Source: an uncultured Schlesneria sp. (GTDB lineage Bacteria > Planctomycetota > Planctomycetia > Planctomycetales > Planctomycetaceae). From it: a DNA stretch of 64,000 nt. The position numbers and the translations under genes are program-made. The notes under the pieces are model-generated. The model did not search any database. It saw only the letters and a list, made by a program, of their open reading frames with translations, and was not told where the DNA came from. Below, piece after piece: positions 36,476 through 53,217 of this stretch; the first letter of the stretch is position 1; each line of letters begins with the position of its first letter. The stretch lies in the NCBI GenBank assembly GCA_903871875.1, contig CAIQIR010000132.1, positions 1 to 64,000 of the forward strand, given 5' to 3'.

Positions 36476-37186
36476 ATGCCGGACAAAAACGACAATTCAC
36501 CGATGGAATCACCACTGCAAAACGGTCGCGGCCGCGCTGCCGGTGAGGCCGTCGAGCATGCGGATTTGGTCGATCGCATCCTGAGCGGTGATCGCGAGGC
36601 ATTGGGAGAACTTTTTGCCATCTACAGACCCCGTTTGTGGCGGATGGTAACGTTTCGACTTCATCCCAGTTTGCAGGGGCGAATTGATGCAGATGATGTG
36701 CTGCAAGATGCCTGGCTAAGAGCCATCGAACGGATCGAACATTTCTACGAGGGGCAGGGGGCGTCGTCGTTTCTCTGGTTCCGCAGTATCGTGATTCAAA
36801 CCCTGCTGGATTTGCATCGGTTCCATCTGGGGGCTCAAAAACGGTCCGCCGGTCGAGAACTGTCCATTGATAGTGGATGGGCGGCCGGATCGACTTCGTC
36901 GTGCCTGGCGTTCCATCTCTCCGATTCGGCTCGATCGCCCAGCAGCAATGCCTCACATGCCGAATTGACGAAGCAACTCGACTCGGTCCTGTTGGGCATG
37001 AATGACGTCGATCGTGAAGTGCTGGCCCTGCGGCATTTCGAGGCTCTCAGTAACAGCGAAGTGGCCAAACTTCTCAACCTGACCGAACAGGCGGCCAGCG
37101 TTCGTTATGTTCGAGCTCTTGGTCGCCTGAAGCAGATTCTCGAACTGGTCGTTCCCGACGCTTTCGGCGATCAAGGCAAAGGATGA
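36476..37186 (+). CDS. ECF-type RNA polymerase sigma factor
   Basis: 236 residues with sigma-70 region 2 (about 30-95: GDREALGELFAIYRPRLWRMVTFRLHPSLQGRIDADDVLQDAWLRA) and region 4 (about 165-225: LDSVLLGMNDVDREVLALRHFEALSNSEVAKLLNLTEQAASVRYVRALGRLKQIL, split here by phrase). A Ser-rich linker joins them. No anti-sigma gene is adjacent. The kinase gene starts 98 bases downstream in the same direction, the arrangement seen in planctomycete ECF groups where a serine/threonine kinase replaces the anti-sigma factor. That link is inference from context. Confidence 0.88.
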   Translation: MPDKNDNSPMESPLQNGRGRAAGEAVEHADLVDRILSGDREALGELFAIYRPRLWRMVTFRLHPSLQGRIDADDVLQDAWLRAIERIEHFYEGQGASSFLWFRSIVIQTLLDLHRFHLGAQKRSAGRELSIDSGWAAGSTSSCLAFHLSDSARSPSSNASHAELTKQLDSVLLGMNDVDREVLALRHFEALSNSEVAKLLNLTEQAASVRYVRALGRLKQILELVVPDAFGDQGKG

Positions 37187-37284
37187 AAGCGGTCGGTTGA
37201 ACGTGGAATCAAATCACCGCCCGTCTTCACCTGTTCGTTTCTGTGTCTTGCTTCCGCCCAATTCCCTTCTCAATGTTGGATCTG

Positions 37285-38529
37285 ATGAATTCCGAACAGG
37301 GAACGCCGCCAAATGCGGATGACGATTTGCCCGAGGTCGCCGACGGCTCCGTGCGCGATCCCCTGGAAGTTGCCCTGACCGAATTCACTGACGAGAAACG
37401 ACGGGGAAAAGCCCCCTCGATCGACGACTTCGTCCAGCGTTACCCCGACCTGGCAGACCAGATTCGCGAACTGTTTCCACTGGTCGACAATCTCGAACGC
37501 TGGAAAGACGAAAAGGAAGTTGAATGCCTGCGACGAAACGTGCCCAAAGAATTTTCGTTCGACAAACTGGGTGAATACCAGCTGGTCCGTGAACTGGGAC
37601 GCGGAGGCATGGGGGTGGTGTTTCATGCCGTCCACGAGACGTCGCACCGGCCCGTGGCGATCAAACTGCTCCCCTGGCGGTTTGCAGCCGACATGACGGT
37701 CTGGAAAGATCGTCTGCGGCGGGAAGCGATGACGATTGCCGCCCTCAAGCATCCCAACATCGTGCAGATCTATTCCTTCTCCCAGGACCAGGGCTACTAC
37801 TATTACGTCATGCAGTTCATCGACGGAGTCGGTCTCGACAAGATTATTCAACAACTGAAGCAGCAGCGGGGTTTACGGCGATCCTCAAGAAAATTCTTCC
37901 CCACCGAAGCCTCCAGGGAACTTGGTTTGACGTACGATGCCTGGCGAGGATTTGCCAAACTGGGCGAACAGATTGCGCTCGCACTCGACTGTGCTCACAA
38001 GCACGACGTGCTGCACAATGACATCAAACCGTCTAATTTGCTGGTGCGATCCAACGGACAGGTCATCGTGACCGATTTTGGGATCGGTGGCCCTCGCGAA
38101 AGCGAACTGGCCGACGCCGATGATCATTCGGTCGGTACGCTCATGTATTTGGCGCCCGAACGCTGGAATGGAAATGGCAGCCCGAAAAGCGACATTTATT
38201 CGCTGGGGGCGACCTTATACGAACTGGCGACCCAGTCACCGATCTTCGACTGTCGGAAGCGGTCTCAATTGATCGATGCGATCCTGAATCGGGAACCGAC
38301 CGGCCCGCGTCGTCTGGTGGCAGAAATTCCTGTCCCGTTAGAGCGGATCATTCTCAAGGCGATGGCCAAAGATCCGCAGGAACGCTATGCCTCGGCTCAT
38401 GCGATGGCCCAGGACTTGCGACGGTTCGTCAATCGCCAACCGATCGAGGCGACCGAACAGAAAATCTGGCAACGCGCGGCCGGTTGGCTGCAGGGATGGT
38501 TTCGCAGCGGGCCAAAAAAATCACGCTGA
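37285..38529 (+). CDS. Serine/threonine protein kinase next to the ECF sigma factor
   Basis: Hanks-type kinase of 414 residues without a membrane helix. An N-terminal region (about 20-90) resembles the planctomycete kinase lead domain. The glycine loop is GRGGMGVVF at 105-113, ATP lysine K127, catalytic loop HNDIKPSNLL at 244-253 and DFG at 264-266. The residue before the catalytic Asp is Asn rather than Arg, so this is a non-RD kinase, probably not controlled by activation-loop phosphorylation. ATG 37285 follows other in-frame starts at 37243 (GTG) and 37273 (ATG), and the true one is not certain. It likely responds to or controls the sigma factor. Confidence 0.85.
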   Translation: MNSEQGTPPNADDDLPEVADGSVRDPLEVALTEFTDEKRRGKAPSIDDFVQRYPDLADQIRELFPLVDNLERWKDEKEVECLRRNVPKEFSFDKLGEYQLVRELGRGGMGVVFHAVHETSHRPVAIKLLPWRFAADMTVWKDRLRREAMTIAALKHPNIVQIYSFSQDQGYYYYVMQFIDGVGLDKIIQQLKQQRGLRRSSRKFFPTEASRELGLTYDAWRGFAKLGEQIALALDCAHKHDVLHNDIKPSNLLVRSNGQVIVTDFGIGGPRESELADADDHSVGTLMYLAPERWNGNGSPKSDIYSLGATLYELATQSPIFDCRKRSQLIDAILNREPTGPRRLVAEIPVPLERIILKAMAKDPQERYASAHAMAQDLRRFVNRQPIEATEQKIWQRAAGWLQGWFRSGPKKSR

Positions 38530-38553
38530 CGGCACCTTGTGCGATCGCAGGCG

Positions 38554-41172
38554 TCACTTGGCGATCGTGACCTTGTCCAGCAACGTCGTGATTCGGTCAG
38601 AAAACTCACTCGGCAGGTGCCCGTACTGCAAACTGGCGAGTTGTGACTGCCCTTCGGTGGTGGCCCATCGCAAGAATCGCACCAGCTCGGCTCCTCGTTC
38701 GCCGGTTTGATCCGTGCGAATGACGGCCCAACAGGTACCGATGATCGGGTACGAACCCGCACCGGGCGCGTCGGTCAGCGAATAGCGAAGATCCGCGGGA
38801 ATTCCTCGCAGCGACGCCGCGGCGACGGCAGAAATTCCGTCGACCGCTGGTTCGACGAACGAACCCGATTGGTTTTTAACCAGGCCCACCGACAGACCAT
38901 TCGCCAGTGCATAGCTCAATTCCACATACCCAATGGCCCCGACCGTACGGCTGACCGTATCAGCGATGCCGTCATTCTTTTCCGCCGCGATGCCAACCGG
39001 CCACGAGACAGTATTCCCCGCCCCAATTTGACTTTTCCAAGTCGAGCTGGCCTTGCTCAGATAGTCCGTCCAGATCGCCGTGGTCCCACTGCCGTCCTTG
39101 CGATAAACGACCGTGATCTCTAAATCCGGCAAGTCGCGACCGGGGTTGCTGACGGCGATGCCGGGATCATTCCATCTTTTGATCTTTCCCAGATAAATGT
39201 TGGCGAGTACCGCTCCGGTAAATCGAATCGAAAGCGGTTCGTCACGTTCATTGGTCACGTTGTACGTGGGTACCACGGCGCCCATGGCCAGTGGGATATG
39301 GATGATGTTGGAATCCGCGGCCTGCAGTTGTTCGTCCGAAAGAAACGCGTCGGTACAACCGAAGTCGAGGAAGTTCGAGACCAGCCCGTCGACGCCTTTG
39401 GTGGAACCGACGGCGGAATATTCGATTTTGATACCGGTCTGCGCCTCATAGATCTTGGACCAGTGTTCGATGGCAGGGCGGATAAATGTGGAACCCCCGC
39501 CGCGTAGAACGATTCCCGTCGAGGCCACCGCAGCCTGATCCGAATCGGTGGCGACGGTGTTGCTGGTCGAAGGGGTCCGAGAATTGGGGCGTTGATTTGA
39601 TCTGGGCGGCGTCACGCCCGAATTCAGGGGATTTAAGATCGCTCGTCCACCAAACCACCACTGCGTGAACAGACCGCCAATCCCGAACGCCAGCACGAGG
39701 GACAGCATCGGCAGCAGCTTGCGTCGAGTGAATCCTTCGGCACTTTTCGTTGATTGCGCTAAACCGCGAATGTACGACGAACCCGATGTCGACACCGTTT
39801 CGCTAGAGGCCGACATGACTTCATTTGTCCGGGCCGATCGAATCGTCACACCCGTGGGAACGACGGCTTCGGAACCCAGCGGGGTCGAATATCCGATGAC
39901 CGATCCCGAACTGTTTGGCGCAACGGCAGCAATGTCGCTCGTCGATTCCGGCCGGATGGCCGACGAACCCTTGTTCGTTTTTGATGGCGAAGAGGTCTTT
40001 GCGGTCGAAGTGGAAGATGTTGAGCCGGTGAACTGCACGCTGTCGGGCGGTGGGCACAATCCCAGCCGATAGTCGCTGGACCGGGTGCGAGGCATTTCTT
40101 CGCTGGTCGGTGCATCGATCGGGGTCTTTGTCCACGGCATTAATGCGGCGATGACATCCAGTGGCGTTTGATACCGCTCGTCCGGACTCTTCTTGATCAT
40201 CCGTTCCAGCACCGCCGCCAATTCCTCGGGGATCTCGCTGCGAAGATTGCGAACCGGTTCCGGTTCACGCGTTTGATGCCACAGTAACTTGCGCATGACC
40301 GGAATGTCGCCCGCCGGCAGCGTCCGCGTCAGCAGAAAGTACATCGTGTAACCGAGGCTGTAGATGTCGGCGCGGATGTCGGCCGAACTCGAATCCATCA
40401 CCTGTTCCGGGGCAATATAGTCGGCCGTTCCAATGATGCATGAGGCGTCAATTTGTTGAGTCAGATTGTCCGATCGAGTCGGATCAAAGAATCGGGCCAG
40501 GCCCAGATCCAGCAGTTTGATCGTCCCGCTGCGATCGAGCATCAGGTTGGCTGGTTTGACGTCGCGATGAACCAATCCCGCCTGATGAGCCTGCTGCAAG
40601 CCGGTCGCGGCCTGACTGATGTAGTGTGCGACGCGATTGATATCCAGCAGATTGTGCTTCACCGCCAATTCGTGCAGATTGGTACCGTCGACATACTCCA
40701 TCACGATGCAAGGACCGAGACCCGTTCGATCGACGTCGAAGACGCGAGCGATATTCGGATGGTCCATCGAGGCCGATGCGCGGGCTTCACGCAGAAACCG
40801 TTCGGCCGCACCCGGAAACTTATCCAGCGATTTGTTCAGAATTTTGACCGCAACCAGTCGCTGCAGCATCAGATGCTCACACAGCAATACTCGGCTCATC
40901 CCTCCCTGACCCAGGAAGTCGAGAATCTTGTATTTGTCGGACAGGAAGAATCCGCGATGGCGGCGTTCACTGAGCTGCTTCGCCTGAAACGGAGTAACGA
41001 GATGCTCGGCGAGCATCTGGCTGAGAATCGCTTTGGGGGAATCGGCCTGAAAGCGTTGCTTCTGCGTTTCAAACAGACTCTGATCCAGCAATCCACTGCG
41101 CGCCAGTAGCTTGAAGAAGTCTTCGGTGGTGAATGATGTCGTCGATTCAGTCATCCGCTCGTTCCGTACCAT
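38554..41172 (-). CDS. Membrane serine/threonine kinase fused to a PstS-like phosphate-binding domain
   Basis: 872 residues. Kinase core about 81-345: glycine loop GQGGMSRVL at 88-96, Lys110, HRDVKPANL at 202-210, DLG at 222-224, SPEQ-like APEQ at 254-257. A Ser/Thr-rich linker (350-480) leads to one membrane helix (about 486-506). Residues about 551-872 match PstS in order and sequence. Contacts of E. coli PstS align as T562 and F563 (GGGSTFIRP), S590 (VGSTKGV), D608 (DFGCTDAFLSDE), R691, S695, G696 and T697 (RKDGSGTT). So phosphate should be bound outside and the kinase lie in the cytoplasm. No pstCAB or phoU is nearby. ATG 41154 is a second possible start. Confidence 0.92.
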   Translation of the reverse strand: MVRNERMTESTTSFTTEDFFKLLARSGLLDQSLFETQKQRFQADSPKAILSQMLAEHLVTPFQAKQLSERRHRGFFLSDKYKILDFLGQGGMSRVLLCEHLMLQRLVAVKILNKSLDKFPGAAERFLREARASASMDHPNIARVFDVDRTGLGPCIVMEYVDGTNLHELAVKHNLLDINRVAHYISQAATGLQQAHQAGLVHRDVKPANLMLDRSGTIKLLDLGLARFFDPTRSDNLTQQIDASCIIGTADYIAPEQVMDSSSADIRADIYSLGYTMYFLLTRTLPAGDIPVMRKLLWHQTREPEPVRNLRSEIPEELAAVLERMIKKSPDERYQTPLDVIAALMPWTKTPIDAPTSEEMPRTRSSDYRLGLCPPPDSVQFTGSTSSTSTAKTSSPSKTNKGSSAIRPESTSDIAAVAPNSSGSVIGYSTPLGSEAVVPTGVTIRSARTNEVMSASSETVSTSGSSYIRGLAQSTKSAEGFTRRKLLPMLSLVLAFGIGGLFTQWWFGGRAILNPLNSGVTPPRSNQRPNSRTPSTSNTVATDSDQAAVASTGIVLRGGGSTFIRPAIEHWSKIYEAQTGIKIEYSAVGSTKGVDGLVSNFLDFGCTDAFLSDEQLQAADSNIIHIPLAMGAVVPTYNVTNERDEPLSIRFTGAVLANIYLGKIKRWNDPGIAVSNPGRDLPDLEITVVYRKDGSGTTAIWTDYLSKASSTWKSQIGAGNTVSWPVGIAAEKNDGIADTVSRTVGAIGYVELSYALANGLSVGLVKNQSGSFVEPAVDGISAVAAASLRGIPADLRYSLTDAPGAGSYPIIGTCWAVIRTDQTGERGAELVRFLRWATTEGQSQLASLQYGHLPSEFSDRITTLLDKVTIAK

Positions 41173-41175
41173 CCA

Positions 41176-41200
41176 TTCACAGTGAACGGGCCCAGTTCAC
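41176..41200. promoter_or_regulatory. Candidate operator of the kinase-PstS gene
   Basis: TTCAC-A-GTGAA at 41176-41186 is an 11-base dyad, and GTGAAC at 41182-41187 pairs with GTTCAC at 41195-41200 across GGGCCCA. Three half-sites therefore overlap, 4-28 bases upstream of the first ATG (41172) of the leftward gene. It does not resemble the E. coli Pho box; the binding protein is unknown. Confidence 0.4.
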
Positions 41201-41495
41201 GATAAGCTCAAAGTCCCCGAAGCGATTGACGATTCGCGTGACCTTGAAAGATGACCACCTCGTCAAAAATTCCTCCCAGAACGCCGCAAGATCGCCATGC
41301 TCCCATGCCCCTCGGGAACATTCAACCGAAGAATCCGTCGAAAGGGCGGATTTCGACGGATCTTTCGGATGTCGAAGCGGTCAAAATCCCCTGTCATTTT
41401 CTATCACACTACCAATTTCGTTCCGGATAGACCTGACAGGATCGATACTCCCCCCTTTTCGCGGGGGGCGCGGTCTGACAGAACTCAGAACTTCG

Positions 41496-41524
41496 TTGAC
41501 AGGCGCTCTCAGACATCGTTACGA
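41496..41524 (+). promoter_or_regulatory. Possible sigma-70-like promoter of the lactonase gene
   Basis: TTGACA at 41496-41501, a 17-base spacer and TTACGA at 41519-41524 upstream of the start at 41550. The -10 is weak, so confidence is low. Confidence 0.3.
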
Positions 41525-41549
41525 CATTTAGTCCTGGGGAACCAAAAAT

Positions 41550-42695
41550 ATGACAAAGAATCACATGCGATTGTTCTTTTGCTGCCTGGTGGGTGCGATG
41601 TTCAGTCAATCCATTTCCCCGACGTTGGCCGACGAGCCGTTGATCTTCATCTCGTCGTTCGCCGCCGGGCAAGACGGATCGATTCACGCGTACAACCTGG
41701 TACCGGCGACGGGGGTGCTGAAACCAATTCAGCAAACGCCGGGCGTCGAACACGCCTTCTTCATGGCGATCTCGCCGGATCAAAAGTACCTCTATTCGAT
41801 TCACGCCCAGACGTTTAGCGGATCCGAGCCTGAACAGGTCGCCGCTTATGCGCTCGAAGGTCGCACCGGCCGCCTGAAATTGCTCAACCGTCAGTCGACG
41901 CGAGGAACAGCCAGTTGTTATCTGGAAGTCGACGCGAAGGGCAAAACGGTTCTGGTCGCCAACTATACGACCGGCAATGTCGCCTCGTTCCCGGTGAAAG
42001 AAGATGGCTCGCTGGCAGAAGCGGCATCGTTCTTTCAACATCGCGGTTCCAGCATCGATCCCGCTCGCCAGAAAGGGCCTAATGCCCACTGCATCGTGGT
42101 CAGCCCGGATAATCGTTTCGCGTTCGCCGCGGATTTGGGCATCGATCAAATCGTCAGTTATCGATTGGACGCAGCAACAGCGAAGCTTTCTGTCAATCAA
42201 CCACCCTACGTGAAAACCGGAGCGGGATTCGGACCACGGCATTTGACATTTTCGCCGAATGGCAAACGCGTCTACGTCATCAACGAATTGAAAAGTTCGA
42301 TCACGATGTTCGACTATGACGCCGCCGCGGGTGTGCTGACCGAACGGCAAACGATTTCGACACTGCCGGCTGAATTCACCGGAACCAGCCATTGCGCCGA
42401 TCTGAAGTTCACTCCGGACGGCCGTTTTCTTTACGGTACGAACCGTGGCCACGACAGTATTGCGGCGTACCGCGTGGCGGACGACGGTCGGCTGACATTG
42501 ATTGACATCGAACCCAGCCTGGGCAAAGGTCCGCAAAACCTGGCCATCGCGGCGAACGGAACGTTGTTGCTGTGCGCGAATATGCCTGGCAACAATGCCG
42601 CCATCTTTCGCATCGACGGAAAAACCGGCCGCCTGACATCCGTCGGAGACCCGCATCCGCAGCTCAGTCCAGCATGTATCAAAGTGTTGCCCTAA
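41550..42695 (+). CDS. Secreted lactonase-family seven-bladed propeller (6-phosphogluconolactonase-like)
   Basis: 381 residues of the YbhE/Pgl beta-propeller type. The N-terminus has a signal peptide (hydrophobic 7-22, cleavage near ADEPL). Repeated blades include VSPDNRFAFAADLGIDQIVSYRLD, FSPNGKRVYVINELKSSITMFDYD and FTPDGRFLYGTNRGHDSIAAYRVADDGRL. The family opens lactones, and the signature lies in the H-x-E/R-type loops, here GPRHLTFSPNGKRVY and GTSHCADLKFTPDG. The cytosolic enzyme acts in the pentose pathway, but an exported copy is more likely to act on an extracellular sugar lactone. Confidence 0.88.
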   Translation: MTKNHMRLFFCCLVGAMFSQSISPTLADEPLIFISSFAAGQDGSIHAYNLVPATGVLKPIQQTPGVEHAFFMAISPDQKYLYSIHAQTFSGSEPEQVAAYALEGRTGRLKLLNRQSTRGTASCYLEVDAKGKTVLVANYTTGNVASFPVKEDGSLAEAASFFQHRGSSIDPARQKGPNAHCIVVSPDNRFAFAADLGIDQIVSYRLDAATAKLSVNQPPYVKTGAGFGPRHLTFSPNGKRVYVINELKSSITMFDYDAAAGVLTERQTISTLPAEFTGTSHCADLKFTPDGRFLYGTNRGHDSIAAYRVADDGRLTLIDIEPSLGKGPQNLAIAANGTLLLCANMPGNNAAIFRIDGKTGRLTSVGDPHPQLSPACIKVLP

Positions 42696-42851: not shown

Positions 42852-44102
42852 CTAATAATGCGTCAGAGCCAACCAGACGATTCCCAGCAACACCGTCAGG
42901 ATTGTGATCGGAATACCCACTTTCAGATATTCCACAAAGCTCACTTCAATCCCTTCCCGCCGCGCGTTTTCGACAACGATCAGGTTCGCCACCGATCCTA
43001 ACAACGTCAGGTTTCCGGCAAAGGTGCTCGACATGGCCAGCGCCAGCCAGGCTTGTTCGGGATCGCTCGTCATGGGGACGACTGGCTTAAACAGCAGTAC
43101 TGCCGGCACGTTGGACACCAGATTCGAAAGCACCACGGAAAGTCCGCTCAAGACCACCACGGGCGACTGCGTCAGGATCTGCCAGTCTTCGATCGACCAG
43201 GTACGAACGACATGTGTGTCGAACGTGTTCACCAGGACAAAGAGGCCCATGAACATCACCAGCAACGGCCAGTCCACGCGGCGATATATGTCCTGCGGAC
43301 GGACGGTGTCGAGCATCATGATGGCCGCGGCACCCAAGGCGACTGTCGCAATTGGGCAACCGGCGAAGAACAACACGACCACTCCGATCGTCACGGCCGT
43401 GCCCTTGATCAGCAGTCGATGGTTCACGTTCCGATCGTCGTCGGTTTCCTCAGAATCGTCAGCAGCCGTCTCACGGGCCGCCGACAGTAAATGTCGGTAG
43501 ACCAGGGCGACGATTAGGAAATTGATCACCAGGCCGATGATGGCAATCGGGGCCAGTCGCCAGGCAAATCGCAGATAACTGATTTCGGACAACGAGCCGA
43601 TGATCACGTTCTGCGGGTTTCCGGTGATTGTGGCCACCGAGCCGATATTTGAAGCCGTGGCCAATCCAATCAGATGAGGCATCGCAGGCTGCTTGGTTCG
43701 ACGACAGACATTCAGCATTAGCGGCGTCAGGGCGACACACACGACGTCGTTGACCAGAAAGGCCGATAGGACGCCGGACAGGCCCATCGTCATCGCCAGC
43801 AATCCATAAGGCCCCAGACGGCAACGGACGACCAACCCCGTGGCCACTTGAAAGAAACCGGCGATTTGCAAATATCCGACCAGCACCATCATGCCGAACA
43901 GCAGCGCGATGGTCTCCATGTCGATGGACTCGGCAGCAGCCTTCAGATCAATCAGTCCCGTGCACAACATGGCCACCGCGCCGATCAATGCGATTCCTGC
44001 GCGATCGACCTGCAGGCCGGGAATCTTTCCGCAGGCCAACCCGAGATAGGTCACCCCGAAAATGAGTGATGTCAGCCGGATGTCGAAGATCGAGTTCGTC
44101 AT
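42852..44102 (-). CDS. ArsB/NhaD superfamily anion or ion transporter
   Basis: Inner-membrane protein of 416 residues with about eleven helices. VNDVVCVALTPLMLNVCRRT with TASNIGSVATITGNPQNVIIG in the first half and LSNLVSNVPAVLLFKPVV with SSTFAGNLTLLGSVANLIVVENA in the second are the duplicated helix-break motifs of the superfamily. The substrate (arsenite, sodium/proton, or dicarboxylate) is not set by sequence; no arsR or arsC is present, so arsenite resistance is not supported. It follows the MFS gene by 36 bases. Confidence 0.85.
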   Translation of the reverse strand: MTNSIFDIRLTSLIFGVTYLGLACGKIPGLQVDRAGIALIGAVAMLCTGLIDLKAAAESIDMETIALLFGMMVLVGYLQIAGFFQVATGLVVRCRLGPYGLLAMTMGLSGVLSAFLVNDVVCVALTPLMLNVCRRTKQPAMPHLIGLATASNIGSVATITGNPQNVIIGSLSEISYLRFAWRLAPIAIIGLVINFLIVALVYRHLLSAARETAADDSEETDDDRNVNHRLLIKGTAVTIGVVVLFFAGCPIATVALGAAAIMMLDTVRPQDIYRRVDWPLLVMFMGLFVLVNTFDTHVVRTWSIEDWQILTQSPVVVLSGLSVVLSNLVSNVPAVLLFKPVVPMTSDPEQAWLALAMSSTFAGNLTLLGSVANLIVVENARREGIEVSFVEYLKVGIPITILTVLLGIVWLALTHY

Positions 44103-44138
44103 ATTGAGAATTTCTGCGAGGAAGACTTTGAAACCGTG

Positions 44139-45401
44139 TTACATCACAGTCGGGCGGCCCTGGTCGATGTTGTCCAGCGAGTGAATAACGTTCTGGTCGG
44201 CGGACAGCAATCGACCACGAGGCAGTGACTCAGGCACAAACAGGACGATGATCGCCGTCGCGATCGTCCCGACCGTGCCAAGGCAGGCGAAAAGAGCACG
44301 ATAGCCAAGCTGGTCGACGAACATCGCCGAGATCGCCGGACCAACGGCTGATCCGAACACCAGGGCGGTTCCGACCAAGGCTTGTGCCTCGCCACTGCGG
44401 CGGACGTCGGCCATTCGGTCAGTCACCCAGGTCGCGGCGAGCACCGCAAACAGCCCATTAGCCGCACCATCCAAAAATTGGTTAGCGACAATCTCCAAGG
44501 GGGACGTGGCTACCGAAACGATGAACAATCGCAGGGACATCACGGCCCAGGCGACAATTAACAGTGGTCGTCGGCCCATCCGGTCGGCGATCCGGCCGGC
44601 CGGCCAGACGGTCAGCATCCAGCCCAGCATGCTGCACACAAACGAATAGGCCAACCAGGAATCGGCGACATCCATCTGGCGCTTCAATAACAACCCCAGA
44701 TAAATTCCACCCGGCGCATTGGCGGCGTGAAACATGACCATCGCGACGATGAAGAACCACAGCGATCGATTAGAGAAATGTGAGGTCCTGGTTGGCGGAG
44801 AATCGCGATTCACTTGCAACGTCGCCACCGGGACGGTCGACAGGTTGTGCGGTTCGTGAATCAGCCAGGCCGCCATAAACCCGATCAACTGAATGACGGT
44901 AATCGGAAACAGGATCGCTTCGATTCCGAATCGGGAGGCCCACCAGCTGCCGACAAGGGCCACCGCGATAATGCCAATCGGCTTCCAGGTTCGCAGTCGT
45001 CCTAACGCGGCAGCCACTTCGGTCGGTGCCGCCAGCGCGGTCACTTCGGCACCGGTCAGGCTTTCGATCATCGCCCGGCAGATCCCATTTTCGGCGAACA
45101 GAACCACCAGCAATCCGATCCACAGCACGCCGTGAGCCCCCTGCAACAGTGCTGCCGAAAGCGTTAACAGGCCGAGTGCCGCCAGCAGGAACGACTTGCG
45201 AGTTCCCACGCGATCCGACCAAAGTCCCAGTGGAAATTGAGCCAGCCCCGAAAGAGCCGCACAGGTCGACACCCAACCGATGGTGCGGTCCGACAGTCCT
45301 TCCTGGCTCAGATAGAGCGGCAGGAACGGTAGTGTAAAGCCGATTCCTGCCGTACCGCAAAGATAGCAGCCATACACACCCACGCGATTTCGCCAGTTCA
45401 T
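44139..45401 (-). CDS. MFS transporter
   Basis: 420 residues and about twelve membrane helices. ATG 45401 (MNWRNRVGVYGCYLCG) is preferred over a GTG at 45539, whose extra 46 residues (a hydrophilic, low-quality stretch) precede helix 1. Motif A appears as GLWSDRVGTRKSFLLA and the second-half counterpart as AGRIADRMGRRPLLIVA. Sugar or drug carriers are possible. It is between the metallophosphoesterase and the ArsB-like gene, all leftward, and is a likely operon member. Confidence 0.88.
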   Translation of the reverse strand: MNWRNRVGVYGCYLCGTAGIGFTLPFLPLYLSQEGLSDRTIGWVSTCAALSGLAQFPLGLWSDRVGTRKSFLLAALGLLTLSAALLQGAHGVLWIGLLVVLFAENGICRAMIESLTGAEVTALAAPTEVAAALGRLRTWKPIGIIAVALVGSWWASRFGIEAILFPITVIQLIGFMAAWLIHEPHNLSTVPVATLQVNRDSPPTRTSHFSNRSLWFFIVAMVMFHAANAPGGIYLGLLLKRQMDVADSWLAYSFVCSMLGWMLTVWPAGRIADRMGRRPLLIVAWAVMSLRLFIVSVATSPLEIVANQFLDGAANGLFAVLAATWVTDRMADVRRSGEAQALVGTALVFGSAVGPAISAMFVDQLGYRALFACLGTVGTIATAIIVLFVPESLPRGRLLSADQNVIHSLDNIDQGRPTVM

Positions 45402-45540
45402 GATGTCAGTACTCCGTGAATGTTCGCGGGCTGTTTTGGGAAGCCGATCTGACAGACCGGCCGACCGGGGATATTTTGCAGGCGATCCATTGGCATCCTC
45501 GAACTTTCTTTCGACCGGCAGGAACCAAGGTGTCTTCACG

Positions 45541-46602
45541 TCAACAAAAGGCCGTCGTCCGAACGACCGGTGACGACTGAGGGACCGCCGTGAAGCGGCA
45601 TGTCACGTCGACAAAAAAATTGAGCTGTCCCCGGCATCGCTGCCCGTCGATCAGATCGGCATGGACGGTCACCTGATGCTCGCCTTTACTCAGCTGATTG
45701 GCATCAACTGGTCCGGACCAACTCTGGTCCTCGTTCTGTGACAGTTCAAACGGATGCTTCTGATCAATCAATGCGATCACGGTATTGACGGGGGTGCAGG
45801 TCCAGATCCGGACGCGAACTTCGTCCGACTCGGACACGATGTGCCGTTCGTCGGTGGCCAGTAACAAGTCGCGCGGATGAGTGATCAGCAAACAGGGGCC
45901 GATGTCGTTGATCGTCCGATATGTCACGGCTAGGTCATCACCGTCGAGATGCACAATCAGATATCCCGGCGCCCCACCTTCGGGATCGCCGATCGACCGC
46001 ACACACAGGGCGACATTGCGTCCATCATTGGCGATCTGGCCGTAATGAGTGTGTCCGCAGATCACCGCCGTCGGGCGATGACGGGCGACCAGTTCTCGCC
46101 AGCGGTCGATTCCTGGTCCCGCAAATTGCTCGCACACCTTATAGGGGTAGTGATGCTGAAAAATGATCGTGTGTTCGCGTTGCTTTTCAGCCAACTGAAA
46201 CTCGGTACTCAGCCAGTCCAGCTGCTCGGGAGCAAAGCCCAGACGAGGGCGTTCCAGCGTATTCAACCGTAGAAAGCGAAAACCGCGCAGGGTCGTACTG
46301 CCATAGTGATCGCCAATCCAGCGGCGAAAGGCCGTCGCGGCGGGATCGCCCACCACATCATGATCGCCGACCAGCGCTTCATAAGGAACGGAAAGTCGCT
46401 CTCGGAGTTCTTCAAATAGCATGAACTGTTCGTCCTGTGCGTCTTGCACGTTGTCGCCGATGAACTGAACAAAGTCGGGTTTGATCAATTCGGAGATTTC
46501 GCGAAGAAGTTTCGTGGCGATTTGGAAGTTCACTTGGTCCCGATTCGTCAGATGCAAATCGCCGGGTACCACGACGGTGACCGGATCATTGCGGGTACTC
46601 AT
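45541..46602 (-). CDS. Calcineurin-like metallophosphoesterase with C-terminal beta-domain
   Basis: 353 residues. ATG 46602 has GAGGAGA five bases upstream; the same frame stays open a further 750 bases but that part has low-complexity and hairpin sequence and is not likely translated. The dimetal site is visible: PGDLHL with D15 and H17, GDNVQD with D50, GDHD with D80, HHYPY and GHTHYG. A C-terminal region from about 240 (VRIWTCTPVNTVIALIDQ...) is a beta-rich extension as in planctomycete phosphodiesterases. No signal peptide, so cytosolic. Possible substrates are cyclic nucleotides or phosphodiesters; unknown. Confidence 0.86.
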   Translation of the reverse strand: MSTRNDPVTVVVPGDLHLTNRDQVNFQIATKLLREISELIKPDFVQFIGDNVQDAQDEQFMLFEELRERLSVPYEALVGDHDVVGDPAATAFRRWIGDHYGSTTLRGFRFLRLNTLERPRLGFAPEQLDWLSTEFQLAEKQREHTIIFQHHYPYKVCEQFAGPGIDRWRELVARHRPTAVICGHTHYGQIANDGRNVALCVRSIGDPEGGAPGYLIVHLDGDDLAVTYRTINDIGPCLLITHPRDLLLATDERHIVSESDEVRVRIWTCTPVNTVIALIDQKHPFELSQNEDQSWSGPVDANQLSKGEHQVTVHADLIDGQRCRGQLNFFVDVTCRFTAVPQSSPVVRTTAFC

Positions 46603-47179
46603 ACCGATCTCCTCGTTGAGTGGTGGCTGGGCATGCACATTTCCGGGTTGGAAGGTGCCTGAACCCGTCCAGAGGCAAACCGCGCGCCGTGACGGCGACC
46701 CGTTCGGAATTGAGAGATCGAAATGGCATTGCCAGGAGCCGTTCCACCTGTTGCCTCCCGGATTTTCATCGCAGATCGCTCCGGCCAGGCCAGCGATATC
46801 TCTGATGTTGGGCAAGATCCCCCCACCAGCGCCGGGGGGGATCTTGCCCAATTCGCGTTGTATTGACGTTGAGTCTTTTTCGTCGTCGGACGGCAGTGGG
46901 ACTTTCTCGAAATTCCTGCGCGCCCCGACGATTTCACGCACCGTCTGATGCAGACACTGCCGCTCATTGACGTTGTGGTCCGAAAGCCATCTCAGAAATG
47001 TCTCGGATTCTTCGACGTGACATCGCCAAGGGTGAGGTTTCACCGCGAACGGCACCCGCGTTGCGTTGGAAAGATCATTGAGCTGCGAGCTAACGATCAG
47101 ACAACGGTTGTCGGGTCGGAAACGTTTTTTCGGAAGAAAACACGAAGCTCGCGGCACGAGACGCAGAAGGAGATTCAAC
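46603..47179. other. 577-base gene-free stretch with a strong hairpin
   Basis: Between divergent genes. The minus-strand frame is open across it as an extension of the metallophosphoesterase, but the true ATG with a ribosome site is at 46602. The main structure is the inverted repeat at 46808-46851. The right end holds an AAGGAG site used by the next gene (47180). No RNA gene or mobile element is recognised. Confidence 0.5.
46808..46851. repeat. Perfect 17-bp inverted repeat with 10-base loop
   Basis: TTGGGCAAGATCCCCCC at 46808-46824 is the exact reverse complement of 46835-46851. The C6/G6 core gives a very stable stem. There is no T-run on either side. It may be a repeated extragenic palindrome, a factor-dependent terminator or a processing hairpin. 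Confidence 0.75.
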
Positions 47180-48415
47180 ATGAAGACAATTTTCGGAAAG
47201 CGATTTTGGCGAGGAAGAATGGGTCGATCGCTGGTCGCCGCTGGGAGTGTGGGTGCCTTGATCCTCGGGTGTGCCCGTTGTGACGCACAGGGGATTGACC
47301 GAACCGCGACACAGTCTGTCGAAGGAAATGTGCAACGACTGACGACGGCACCCAAAGGCGAAATCGATGGGGCGGTTTTGGATAACGGAACGTGGCTTCA
47401 CTGGCCGCCGCATCGTCAGGATCAGTTTTCGCGGGCCTTGAAAATCGGAGATCCTGTGCGAGCGACCGGTCGCTCGGAATCAGGACCTGCCGGCGACGAA
47501 CATTTCGAAGTGGATACCATCGTCAATTCTCGCACCAATCAGACGATCGAGAATCCGGATTTTGCCATCGGTCCTCCTCCCCCTCCAGCTCGCCGTGGAC
47601 GTGGTCCGGGGCGTCGACCCGTTCCGCCAGCTGGACCGGGCCGCCCGCCAGTGAGAGATGCGGAGCCGGCCACAGAGGTCCAAGGCCGCGTGACACGAAC
47701 GACGTCAGCACCGCGTGGTGAGACGGACGGTGTGATGTTGGACAATGGTACATGGCTGCATTGGCCGCCTCATCTGGAAGGCCTGTTTGTCCCGTTGACC
47801 AAGGTCGGTGAAAACGTTCGGGCCAGGGGACGAACCGAGATCGGTCCCCGTGGTGATCAGCACTTTGAAATCATCTCCCTGACCAATCTGCGTTCGAACG
47901 CCACGGCCGAGAATCCCGATGGTGACTTTGGCCCTGGCGCCGGTCCGCGTGGTCCGGGGCGACGATTGCCTCCTCGGTTCGTGGCTAATGAACGGCCACC
48001 GCTTTCCACCCCAGCTACTCAGAATGCGGGTGAGCATGAAGGGAACGTGACGCGTTTGACGATGGCACCTCGCGGCGAAGTCGATGGGGCGATGCTGGAT
48101 GACGGGACCGCGCTGCATTGGCCACCTCATCTGGCCGACCGATTTGCCGACGTGGTGAAAGTCGGTGAACGTGTACGTGCGACGGGTGAACAGGAAACCG
48201 GTCCAGCCGGCGATGCCCATTTCGAGGTGAGCCTCGTGACGAATCTGCGGACCAATCGCAGCGTTCAGAATCCTGATGCGGTGGATACGCGAAGCGTCGC
48301 AACCGAGGGATCGGTTTCGGCTGACCTGGCCACCCGAGACAGTCGCTTGCGAGACCTGGAGCAACAGATTGAGCAATTGCGGCGCGAGATCCAGCGCTTG
48401 CGCCAAGAAAAGTAG
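47180..48415 (+). CDS. Secreted or lipid-anchored protein with three OB-like repeats
   Basis: 411 residues. AAGGAG seven bases upstream of ATG 47180 fixes the start. The N-terminal hydrophobic stretch (about 17-33) ends LGCARCDAQG, so either lipidation at Cys or cleavage after AQG is possible. Three near-identical domains of about 75-80 residues follow, each with DGxxLDxGTxLHWPPH (WLHWPPHRQDQF, WLHWPPHLEGLF, ALHWPPHLADRF), then VRATGRxExGPxGDxHFE. Pro/Arg/Gly linkers separate them. The C-terminus is a coiled coil (DSRLRDLEQQIEQLRREIQRLRQEK, split here as one phrase). Function unknown; an OB-type ligand-binding fold is inference. Confidence 0.7.
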   Translation: MKTIFGKRFWRGRMGRSLVAAGSVGALILGCARCDAQGIDRTATQSVEGNVQRLTTAPKGEIDGAVLDNGTWLHWPPHRQDQFSRALKIGDPVRATGRSESGPAGDEHFEVDTIVNSRTNQTIENPDFAIGPPPPPARRGRGPGRRPVPPAGPGRPPVRDAEPATEVQGRVTRTTSAPRGETDGVMLDNGTWLHWPPHLEGLFVPLTKVGENVRARGRTEIGPRGDQHFEIISLTNLRSNATAENPDGDFGPGAGPRGPGRRLPPRFVANERPPLSTPATQNAGEHEGNVTRLTMAPRGEVDGAMLDDGTALHWPPHLADRFADVVKVGERVRATGEQETGPAGDAHFEVSLVTNLRTNRSVQNPDAVDTRSVATEGSVSADLATRDSRLRDLEQQIEQLRREIQRLRQEK

Positions 48416-51826: not shown

Positions 51827-53217
51827 CTCGTGACCGAGACAGGCCCGTGATTCTGGTCGCGGATGATGACGCGACGATTCGCGGCAACCTCGCGCTGCTA
51901 TTAAAGTCGGAAGGCTTCGCCGTGCGCGAAGCGGTCGACGGTCTTGAGGCGATGAAACAATTTGTCGATCCGACGATCAATCTCGTTCTGCTGGATCTGA
52001 ACATGCCCGGACACAACGGCATGGAAATCCTGCGCGAACACAGCGACCTGTTGGAGCAGTTGCCCGTGATCGTGATCACCGCTTACGGCGGAAGCAGTGC
52101 GGCGATCGAAGCGATGAAGCTGGGGGCCTTCGATTATCTCTCCAAACCGTTTGATCTGGACGAGGTCCTGTTTACCATCCGCCGCGCATTGAAACAGCAG
52201 TCGCTGGTGGCCCAGGTGCAATCGATGTCGCCGGTCGCCGAGTCCGCATCCTCGGCGGATGAATTCATCGGCCGCACACCGGCCATGCTGCGTGTCTTCA
52301 AACTGATCGGCCGTGTCGCCGCGACGCAGGAACCCGTGCTGATTATCGGCGAGAGCGGCACAGGCAAAGAACTGGTTGCCAGTGCCATCCACAAAAGTTC
52401 AACGCGGGCCGACAAGCCATTCGTGAAAGTGAACAGCGCGGCGCTCAGTTCGTCGCTGCTGGAAAGCGAGATGTTCGGACACGAACGCGGCGCATTTACG
52501 GGCGCAGTTGCTCAACGCGTCGGCCGCTTTGAACAGGCCGATGGTGGAACGCTGTTTCTGGATGAAATCGGCGACATGGATATCGAGCTGCAGGCGAAAC
52601 TGCTGCGAGTCCTGCAATACGGTCAGTTCGAACGGGTCGGTGGTCAGCAGACGATTCAAACCGATGTCCGCATCATTTCGGCGACGAACCGTGATTTACC
52701 GGCGCGCATCGTCGATGGTTCGTTTCGAGAAGACCTACTCTATCGCTTGAATGTTGTGACGATCGAATTGCCGCCCCTGCGAGAGCGGCGCGACGATATC
52801 CCACTCATCGCGCAACACATCGTGCAGCGGTTGGCACAGAAATACGATTGGCCTCAGCTGGCATTAACACAGGAAGCGCTGGATCATCTCGTTCACCAAC
52901 CCTGGCCCGGTAATGTCCGCGAATTACAGAACGTATTGGCCCGAGCGGCGATTCTGTCCTGCGGCCGCGGCATGCAAGTGGGTGATCTGCAAGCAACATC
53001 GCACCCATCGGAGTCTGCGACAGCCGCACATTCGCCCGCCGTCCCCACCGGCTCGCTCAATCTGCACGAAATCATGGCTGCCACGGAACGACGGGTGATC
53101 GCTCAGGCATTGGAACAGGAAGGCTGGAATCGCACCAAAGCCGCACAGGTGCTTGGTATCAGCCGCCGGCAACTCTTCGACAAGATTCAGCTCTACGGTC
53201 TGGAACGTCGGTCGTAG
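51823..53217 (+). CDS. Sigma-54-dependent response regulator (NtrC family)
   Basis: 464 residues in three domains. Receiver (about 8-120): acidic pair ADDD at 13-16, phosphoacceptor D58 in LLDLNMPG, then VITAYGG and [11 protein letters not shown]+ domain (about 145-380) with Walker A GESGTGKE, the sigma-54 contact GAFTGA and Walker [14 protein letters not shown] Fis-type helix-turn-helix closes it ([26 protein letters not shown]). It activates sigma-54 promoters, probably on signal from the overlapping kinase. I did not find a clear -24/-12 element in the window. Confidence 0.96.

Follow-up and report, generated by a model that had tools for sequence, protein, structure and literature searches.

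Classical phosphate sensing depends on PstSCAB-PhoU acting with PhoR. In this PstSCAB-PhoU-PhoR system, PstS works via the transporter and a histidine kinase, and the route from PstS occupancy to the kinase is hard to test classically because transport and signalling are tied to one another. A different arrangement is found in the mycobacterial GlnH-GlnX-PknG system, of which GlnX is a part. Solute-binding proteins are described in PMC9602780 as able to activate Ser/Thr kinases, and a reference therein concerns GlnH-PknG, in which a Ser/Thr kinase is controlled by a solute-binding protein. In P. aeruginosa, phosphate-loaded PstS is reported to drive the chemoreceptor CtpL (PMC4926252), and in M. 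tuberculosis a pstS2-pknD operon has been predicted (PMC3322341). Finally, a table of actinomycete siderophore clusters gives five of 55 SBP_bac_3 genes as carrying Pkinase, and ten PBP_like_2 genes with no co-occurring domain (PMC13293324).

Here we describe a gene in the window, by which we mean the whole 64-kb stretch of DNA that was analysed, whose predicted product joins a Ser/Thr kinase to a PstS domain. As in receptor kinases of the PknB/StkP type, a putatively cytoplasmic N-terminal Hanks-type kinase is followed by one helix and a putatively extracytoplasmic C-terminal sensor, but that sensor is PstS and not a set of PASTA repeats. The protein would couple an outer PstS to kinase signalling as PstSCAB-PhoU-PhoR does, but in one chain and with a Ser/Thr kinase. 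It resembles the actinomycete genes tabulated in PMC13293324 in combining a solute-binding domain and a Ser/Thr kinase in one gene, although theirs is SBP_bac_3. GlnH and PknG, as cited in PMC9602780, offer the same kind of control by means of separate proteins and with a different ligand. The action of phosphate-loaded PstS on a membrane receptor, which we only propose for the fusion, has its counterpart in PstS-CtpL, but in that case PstS acts as a free-standing protein on a chemoreceptor (PMC4926252). The pstS2-pknD pair likewise links a PstS gene to a receptor Ser/Thr kinase gene, but as two genes, and PknD has a sensor domain of its own (PMC3322341).

The sequence-only reading had proposed this protein as a candidate for an undescribed sensing mode. 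That proposal stands in part: a search of open-licence literature, with subscription papers, including planctomycete kinase reviews, lying mostly outside it, returned no paper on a kinase-PstS fusion, but genes that combine SBP_bac_3 and Pkinase are already tabulated (PMC13293324). Since the literature already contains kinases that are fused to, or controlled by, other solute-binding proteins, we regard the PstS version as a variant and not as a new principle. If the reading is true, a single chain carries both a well-studied phosphate pocket and a kinase, which would make the coupling of ligand to kinase directly measurable. Few bacterial receptor Ser/Thr kinases have a known ligand, and the ligand of the fusion is predictable from its sequence.

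Architecture of the fusion protein

The source genome comprises 7.61 Mb in 178 contigs, and the window lies within contig C132. The gene and its domains are listed in Table 1. Since similarity to the homologue from G135, a genome of the same genus, begins just before Met7, this methionine may be the true start of the 872-residue reading frame. A paralogue in the same genome (L002) aligns from residue 14 onward.

Table 1. Coordinates of the fusion gene and its parts, and of the Pst-PhoU genes found elsewhere in the same genome.
Feature	Location	Strand	Basis or score
Whole gene: kinase, linker, membrane helix, PstS domain	38554..41172	(-)	872 aa; ATG start
Segment N-terminal to kinase, residues 1-75	40948..41172	(-)	similar segments in sister kinases
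Ser/Thr protein kinase domain, residues 81-335	40168..40932	(-)	PF00069 and catalytic motifs
Ser/Thr-rich linker, predicted cytoplasmic, residues 346-481	39730..40137	(-)	composition
Predicted single membrane helix, residues 486-504	39661..39717	(-)	hydropathy scan and alignment of 19 fusions
Stalk, predicted extracytoplasmic, poorly conserved, residues 507-552	39517..39654	(-)	identity to same-genus homologue
Predicted PstS phosphate-binding domain, residues 556-866	38575..39507	(-)	TIGR00975, aligned contacts, predicted structure
PstS, TIGR02136	contig C93		254.7 bits, cut-off 206.6
PstC	contig C93		256.1 bits, cut-off 196.45
PstA	contig C93		224.4 bits, cut-off 193.45
PstB	contig C93		406 bits, cut-off 343.2
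PhoU	contig C93		199.4 bits, cut-off 130.25
PhoB-like regulator	L113:2452-3180	(-)	239 bits, below cut-off 296.2

The kinase half matches PF00069 (Pkinase, Pfam) with an E-value of 2.9e-45 and a score of 155.1 bits, against a gathering score of 31.7. All of the kinase residues named from the sequence beforehand (K110, HRD at 202-204 and DLG at 222-224) are confirmed, and E129 and N209 are also present. By its profile score and its full set of catalytic residues, the domain is a Hanks-type Ser/Thr protein kinase, and the closest solved kinase sequences are those of mycobacterial PknB. Identity as a PASTA receptor kinase was ruled out: profile NF033483 gives 256.7 bits, below its equivalog cut-off of 450, with a match only within residues 76-389, and no PASTA repeat was matched in the 872-residue protein by Pfam at an E-value of 0.01.

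The C-terminal half matches PBP_like_2 (PF12849, Pfam; E-value 2.9e-35, residues 550-838). It also scores 322.1-325.5 bits with the PstS equivalog TIGR00975, whose cut-off is 205, and is the only match above that cut-off in the genome. TIGR00975 itself was scored on four of the 19 fusions described below, and the other three scored 322.0 (L112), 305.3 (L161) and 208.5 bits (second copy in L165). In a pairwise alignment with mature E. coli PstS, 121 of 312 aligned positions are identical. This alignment pairs T562, F563, S590, D608, R691, S695, G696 and T697, the contacts proposed earlier, one-to-one with E. coli T10, F11, S38, D56, R135, S139, G140 and T141, which we take to be the phosphate contacts; all eight are identical, and D693 is paired with an identical residue, D137.

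We then compared the domain with known structures using an AlphaFold2 model of residues 540-872 only, the input alignment of which consisted almost wholly of stand-alone PstS. The model has a mean pLDDT of 93.5 and a pTM of 0.91. Its top Foldseek match is the phosphate-bound Xanthomonas PstS 8ods, with a TM-score of 0.92 by target length. VIA-align places it on Yersinia PstS 2z22 with a Z-score of 44.3 (312 residues at 1.6 A) and on 8ods, the comparison with a phosphate-bound structure that had been suggested, with a Z-score of 44.1, whereas the molybdate-binding ModA entries lie near 16. Given PstS Z-scores of about 44 versus about 16 for ModA, the C-terminal domain is, on its profile and modelled fold, a true PstS rather than just any periplasmic-binding fold, as the sequence-only reading had held. 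A chance alignment of the pocket is ruled out by the curated TIGR00975 cut-off together with the fold match. The domain thus shares its fold and contacts with E. coli-type PstS, but classical PstS is free in the periplasm or lipid-anchored and encoded beside pstCAB, whereas the fusion lacks a signal peptide, is tethered by an internal helix to the kinase in front of it and has no adjacent pstCAB in the window.

A single helix had been placed at about residues 486-506, and the best hydrophobic 19-mer indeed spans residues 486-504. It is directly preceded by RRK, so that the positive charges face the kinase side. Hydropathy between kinase and sensor exceeds the threshold in 18 of 19 fusions, and the remaining one has a hydrophobic segment at the aligned position. 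We infer from this that the kinase lies on the cytoplasmic side of the membrane and PstS on the outer side.

Occurrence, conservation and descent

Taxonomic mapping of the architecture, which had been proposed as a check, yielded 19 complete fusions over two families: two in the genus of the window and 17 in 12 of 95 Gemmataceae genomes. The samples overlap and comprise 170 genomes of the window's family, 392 of its phylum, 397 of its class and the 95 Gemmataceae genomes. With the PstS part as query, matches were obtained in nine of the 170 family genomes, and a kinase precedes PstS in two of them, namely the window's own genome and G135, whose homologue is 72% identical to the window protein in the PstS part. 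In the phylum sample (392 genomes), a frame as long as these was obtained from the window's own genome alone. In the class sample (397 genomes), frames of more than 600 residues occur only in Gemmataceae and the window's family; the one in G072, of the latter family, lacks a kinase. PstS-type matches are present in 64 of the 95 Gemmataceae genomes. The long PstS frames L020, L160, L164 and L171 contain a PstS-type domain only and no kinase, and the L170 fusion frame consists of a kinase and PBP_like_2 (Pfam). G534 carries kinase fragments and PstS fragments, two of each, all of them cut off at contig ends; these are probably two further fusions. A separate, non-exhaustive scan with short exact patterns gave 69 loci, among which the only one of the fusion type is L025, from a Gemmataceae MAG (G534), in which a helix and PstS run off the contig end. 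An assembly artefact or chimera is ruled out because 18 other complete frames in other genomes have the same domain order.

The catalytic residues are well conserved among the fusions. Equivalents of Lys110, Glu129 and Asn209 are kept in 19/19, and the Asp residues of HRD and DLG in 18/19. The exception, L156:8782-11466, has an intact PstS pocket and a degenerate kinase, in which HRD has become HKG and DLG has become EVG. Catalytic signalling therefore cannot hold for L156, which, from its sequence, is perhaps a pseudokinase receptor. We also observed a linker motif, MP......YRLGL (residues 360-372; 40057-40095 of the window, minus strand), that recurs almost unchanged throughout the 19 fusions, with P361, G371 and L372 invariant in every one. 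It is possibly a docking or regulatory element.

Counting a pocket as complete when all contacts are kept, with Ser accepted for Thr10, 14 of the 19 fusions have a complete pocket (16 if Leu is accepted at Phe11). By the same count, 99 of 112 stand-alone PstS domains do (100 with Leu at Phe11). Incomplete pockets occur in L135, L170 and L172 and in the second fusion copy of both L163 and L165. The most decayed pocket belongs to the G542 fusion that lies beside pstSCAB (L165), in which four contacts are replaced by P, L, G and A.

Between the window protein and its G135 homologue, dN/dS is approximately 0.06 in the N-terminal and kinase part, 0.10 in PstS, 0.37 in the linker and 0.30 in the helix and stalk, figures that are rough because dS is 1.4-2.3, near saturation. 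The helix and stalk are only 37% identical in this pair. The low values at both ends of the protein indicate that the kinase and PstS parts are both under purifying selection.

The set of PstS domains comprised 131 rows after removal of duplicates and of domains shorter than 250 residues. For the PstS tree of 83 rows, the pattern-scan loci other than L025 were reduced to 18 chosen ids, E. coli PstS was added and L025 was labelled solo, as its contig does not reach the kinase part. In this tree, a branch with an SH-aLRT of 91 separates the 19 fusions, together with L025, from all other rows. In an earlier kinase tree, L175 was labelled by hand as fused and L116 as a paralogue, both of which reach contig ends; in a later one, the contig-cut L116 was counted among the fused kinases. 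The fused kinases and L116 group together at 99/96 versus eight sister kinases. This grouping in both trees indicates that the fusion arose once.

The window's pair falls among Gemmataceae rows in the kinase tree. A constraint uniting the 19 Gemmataceae kinase rows apart from this pair is rejected with a p-AU of 0.028, although this group was chosen only once an initial tree had been inspected, and support for the branches next to the pair is moderate (83/82 and 91/82). The trees suggest that the window's lineage probably acquired the fusion from Gemmataceae, and transfer is likelier than many losses because only two of 170 family genomes carry the fusion. Base composition gives no sign of a recent foreign gene, with 57.5% G+C in the gene and 56.6% in the window.

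Two of the sister kinases, L002 (on contig C54 of the window's own genome) and L117 (in G534), share the front half but have a different C-terminal region after the helix, and thus the outer domain behaves as an exchangeable sensor. By eye, the C-terminal region of L002 and L117 resembles a parallel beta-helix.

Proposed ligand and mode of action

The evidence from the PstS profile and modelled fold, the pockets, the kinase motifs, conservation over two families and purifying selection supports the phosphate-binding receptor kinase put forward earlier, and we consider the protein likely to be a single-chain receptor kinase for inorganic phosphate. In such a protein, the PknB-like N-terminal kinase would lie in the cytoplasm, one helix would cross the membrane and the C-terminal PstS domain would be outside. 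By analogy with other sensors of the solute-binding type, phosphate might bring both lobes of the PstS domain together; such closure could alter the pairing of chains or the position of helix and linker, and this change could switch trans-autophosphorylation and substrate phosphorylation by the kinase. We infer phosphate as the ligand, closure as the switch and the pairing of chains. More broadly, we lean slightly toward the view that planctomycetes possess one-piece phosphate receptors that arose once when PstS replaced another sensor, that are independent of the transporter and of a histidine kinase, and that would signal by Ser/Thr phosphorylation in parallel to PstSCAB-PhoU.

The absence of pst and phoU genes near the fusion, claimed from the sequence, holds up in tblastn searches of the 64-kb window with Pst and PhoU queries from the same genome and from E. 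coli; a weak PhoB-like match was seen at 51841-52323. The genome does contain a complete pstSCAB-phoU locus on contig C93, and so the fusion would supplement classical sensing, not substitute for it. That locus terminates in a PhoB-like regulator and has no adjacent PhoR. The best PhoR-like kinase of the genome, on contig C27, scores 294.3 bits versus a cut-off of 334.2, which is itself passed by only one of 14 control genomes.

The presence of this locus bears on the main rival explanation, in which the tethered PstS still docks on PstCAB, so that the protein senses how occupied the transporter is or supplies it with phosphate, and in either case recruits a kinase to it. Phosphate would still be the ligand, but the sensing unit would be the complex. 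P. aeruginosa PstS is reported to do both, feeding a transporter and stimulating a receptor (PMC4926252), and pst genes adjoin the fusion in two of 14 Gemmataceae regions with complete fusions. In G542, the fusion (L165:13439-15832) stands immediately in front of codirectional genes for PstS, PstC, PstA and PstB, and in G550 (L169) it faces PstA-PstC-PstS, with PstB beyond. This linkage supports phosphate as the ligand, yet the pocket in G542 is the most decayed. Against docking, the Pst locus in the window's genome already includes a PstS, which belongs to a different family (TIGR02136), and PstC/PstA matches lie within the fetched DNA at 58 of 77 stand-alone loci but in only two of 16 regions with complete fusions (the 14 Gemmataceae regions, G135 and the window). 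Furthermore, at seven positions, which may or may not serve in docking, the fusions have diverged from residues that stand-alone PstS conserves. We consider docking unlikely.

A receptor of the same design for another oxyanion or an organic phosphate appears decidedly improbable. Related folds bind molybdate or tungstate (ModA, with a Z-score of about 16) and contacts are altered in several distant fusions, but the window pocket equals that of E. coli PstS at all eight contacts and at D137, and PstS structures match far above ModA. Arsenate and phosphate are indistinguishable by sequence. We give very little credence to the idea that the PstS part is a stabiliser or relic and that the kinase answers to something else; decayed pockets in some members and the degenerate kinase in one would fit it, but the window protein's contacts are intact and its PstS part is under purifying selection, with the rough dN/dS of about 0.10 given above.

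Surroundings of the gene

Pattern matches to the Pho box number three in the window, where 4.53 are expected by chance, and none is upstream of the gene; no sigma-70-like promoter was found in 38400-41600, where 1.4 are expected. No neighbours are conserved between the two genomes of the window's genus; this and the lack of an upstream Pho box weigh against the preferred reading. Among 20 chosen Gemmataceae neighbour ORFs scanned with Pfam, a recurring neighbour with a tRNA_anti-like match lies beside close relatives only. A second fusion copy with an altered pocket, L163:14912-17344, is downstream of an ECF sigma factor gene. In the window, an ECF sigma factor gene (36476-37186, plus strand; TIGR02984 at 169.3 bits, below the cut-off of 183.75) is followed by a gene for a Ser/Thr kinase without a predicted helix (37243-38529, plus strand), which converges on the fusion gene. 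On the far side, genes for a calcineurin-like phosphoesterase, an MFS transporter and a CitMHS/ArsB-type transporter lie in a row on one strand (42852-47355, minus strand), and a lactonase gene is located on the other strand between this row and the fusion gene.
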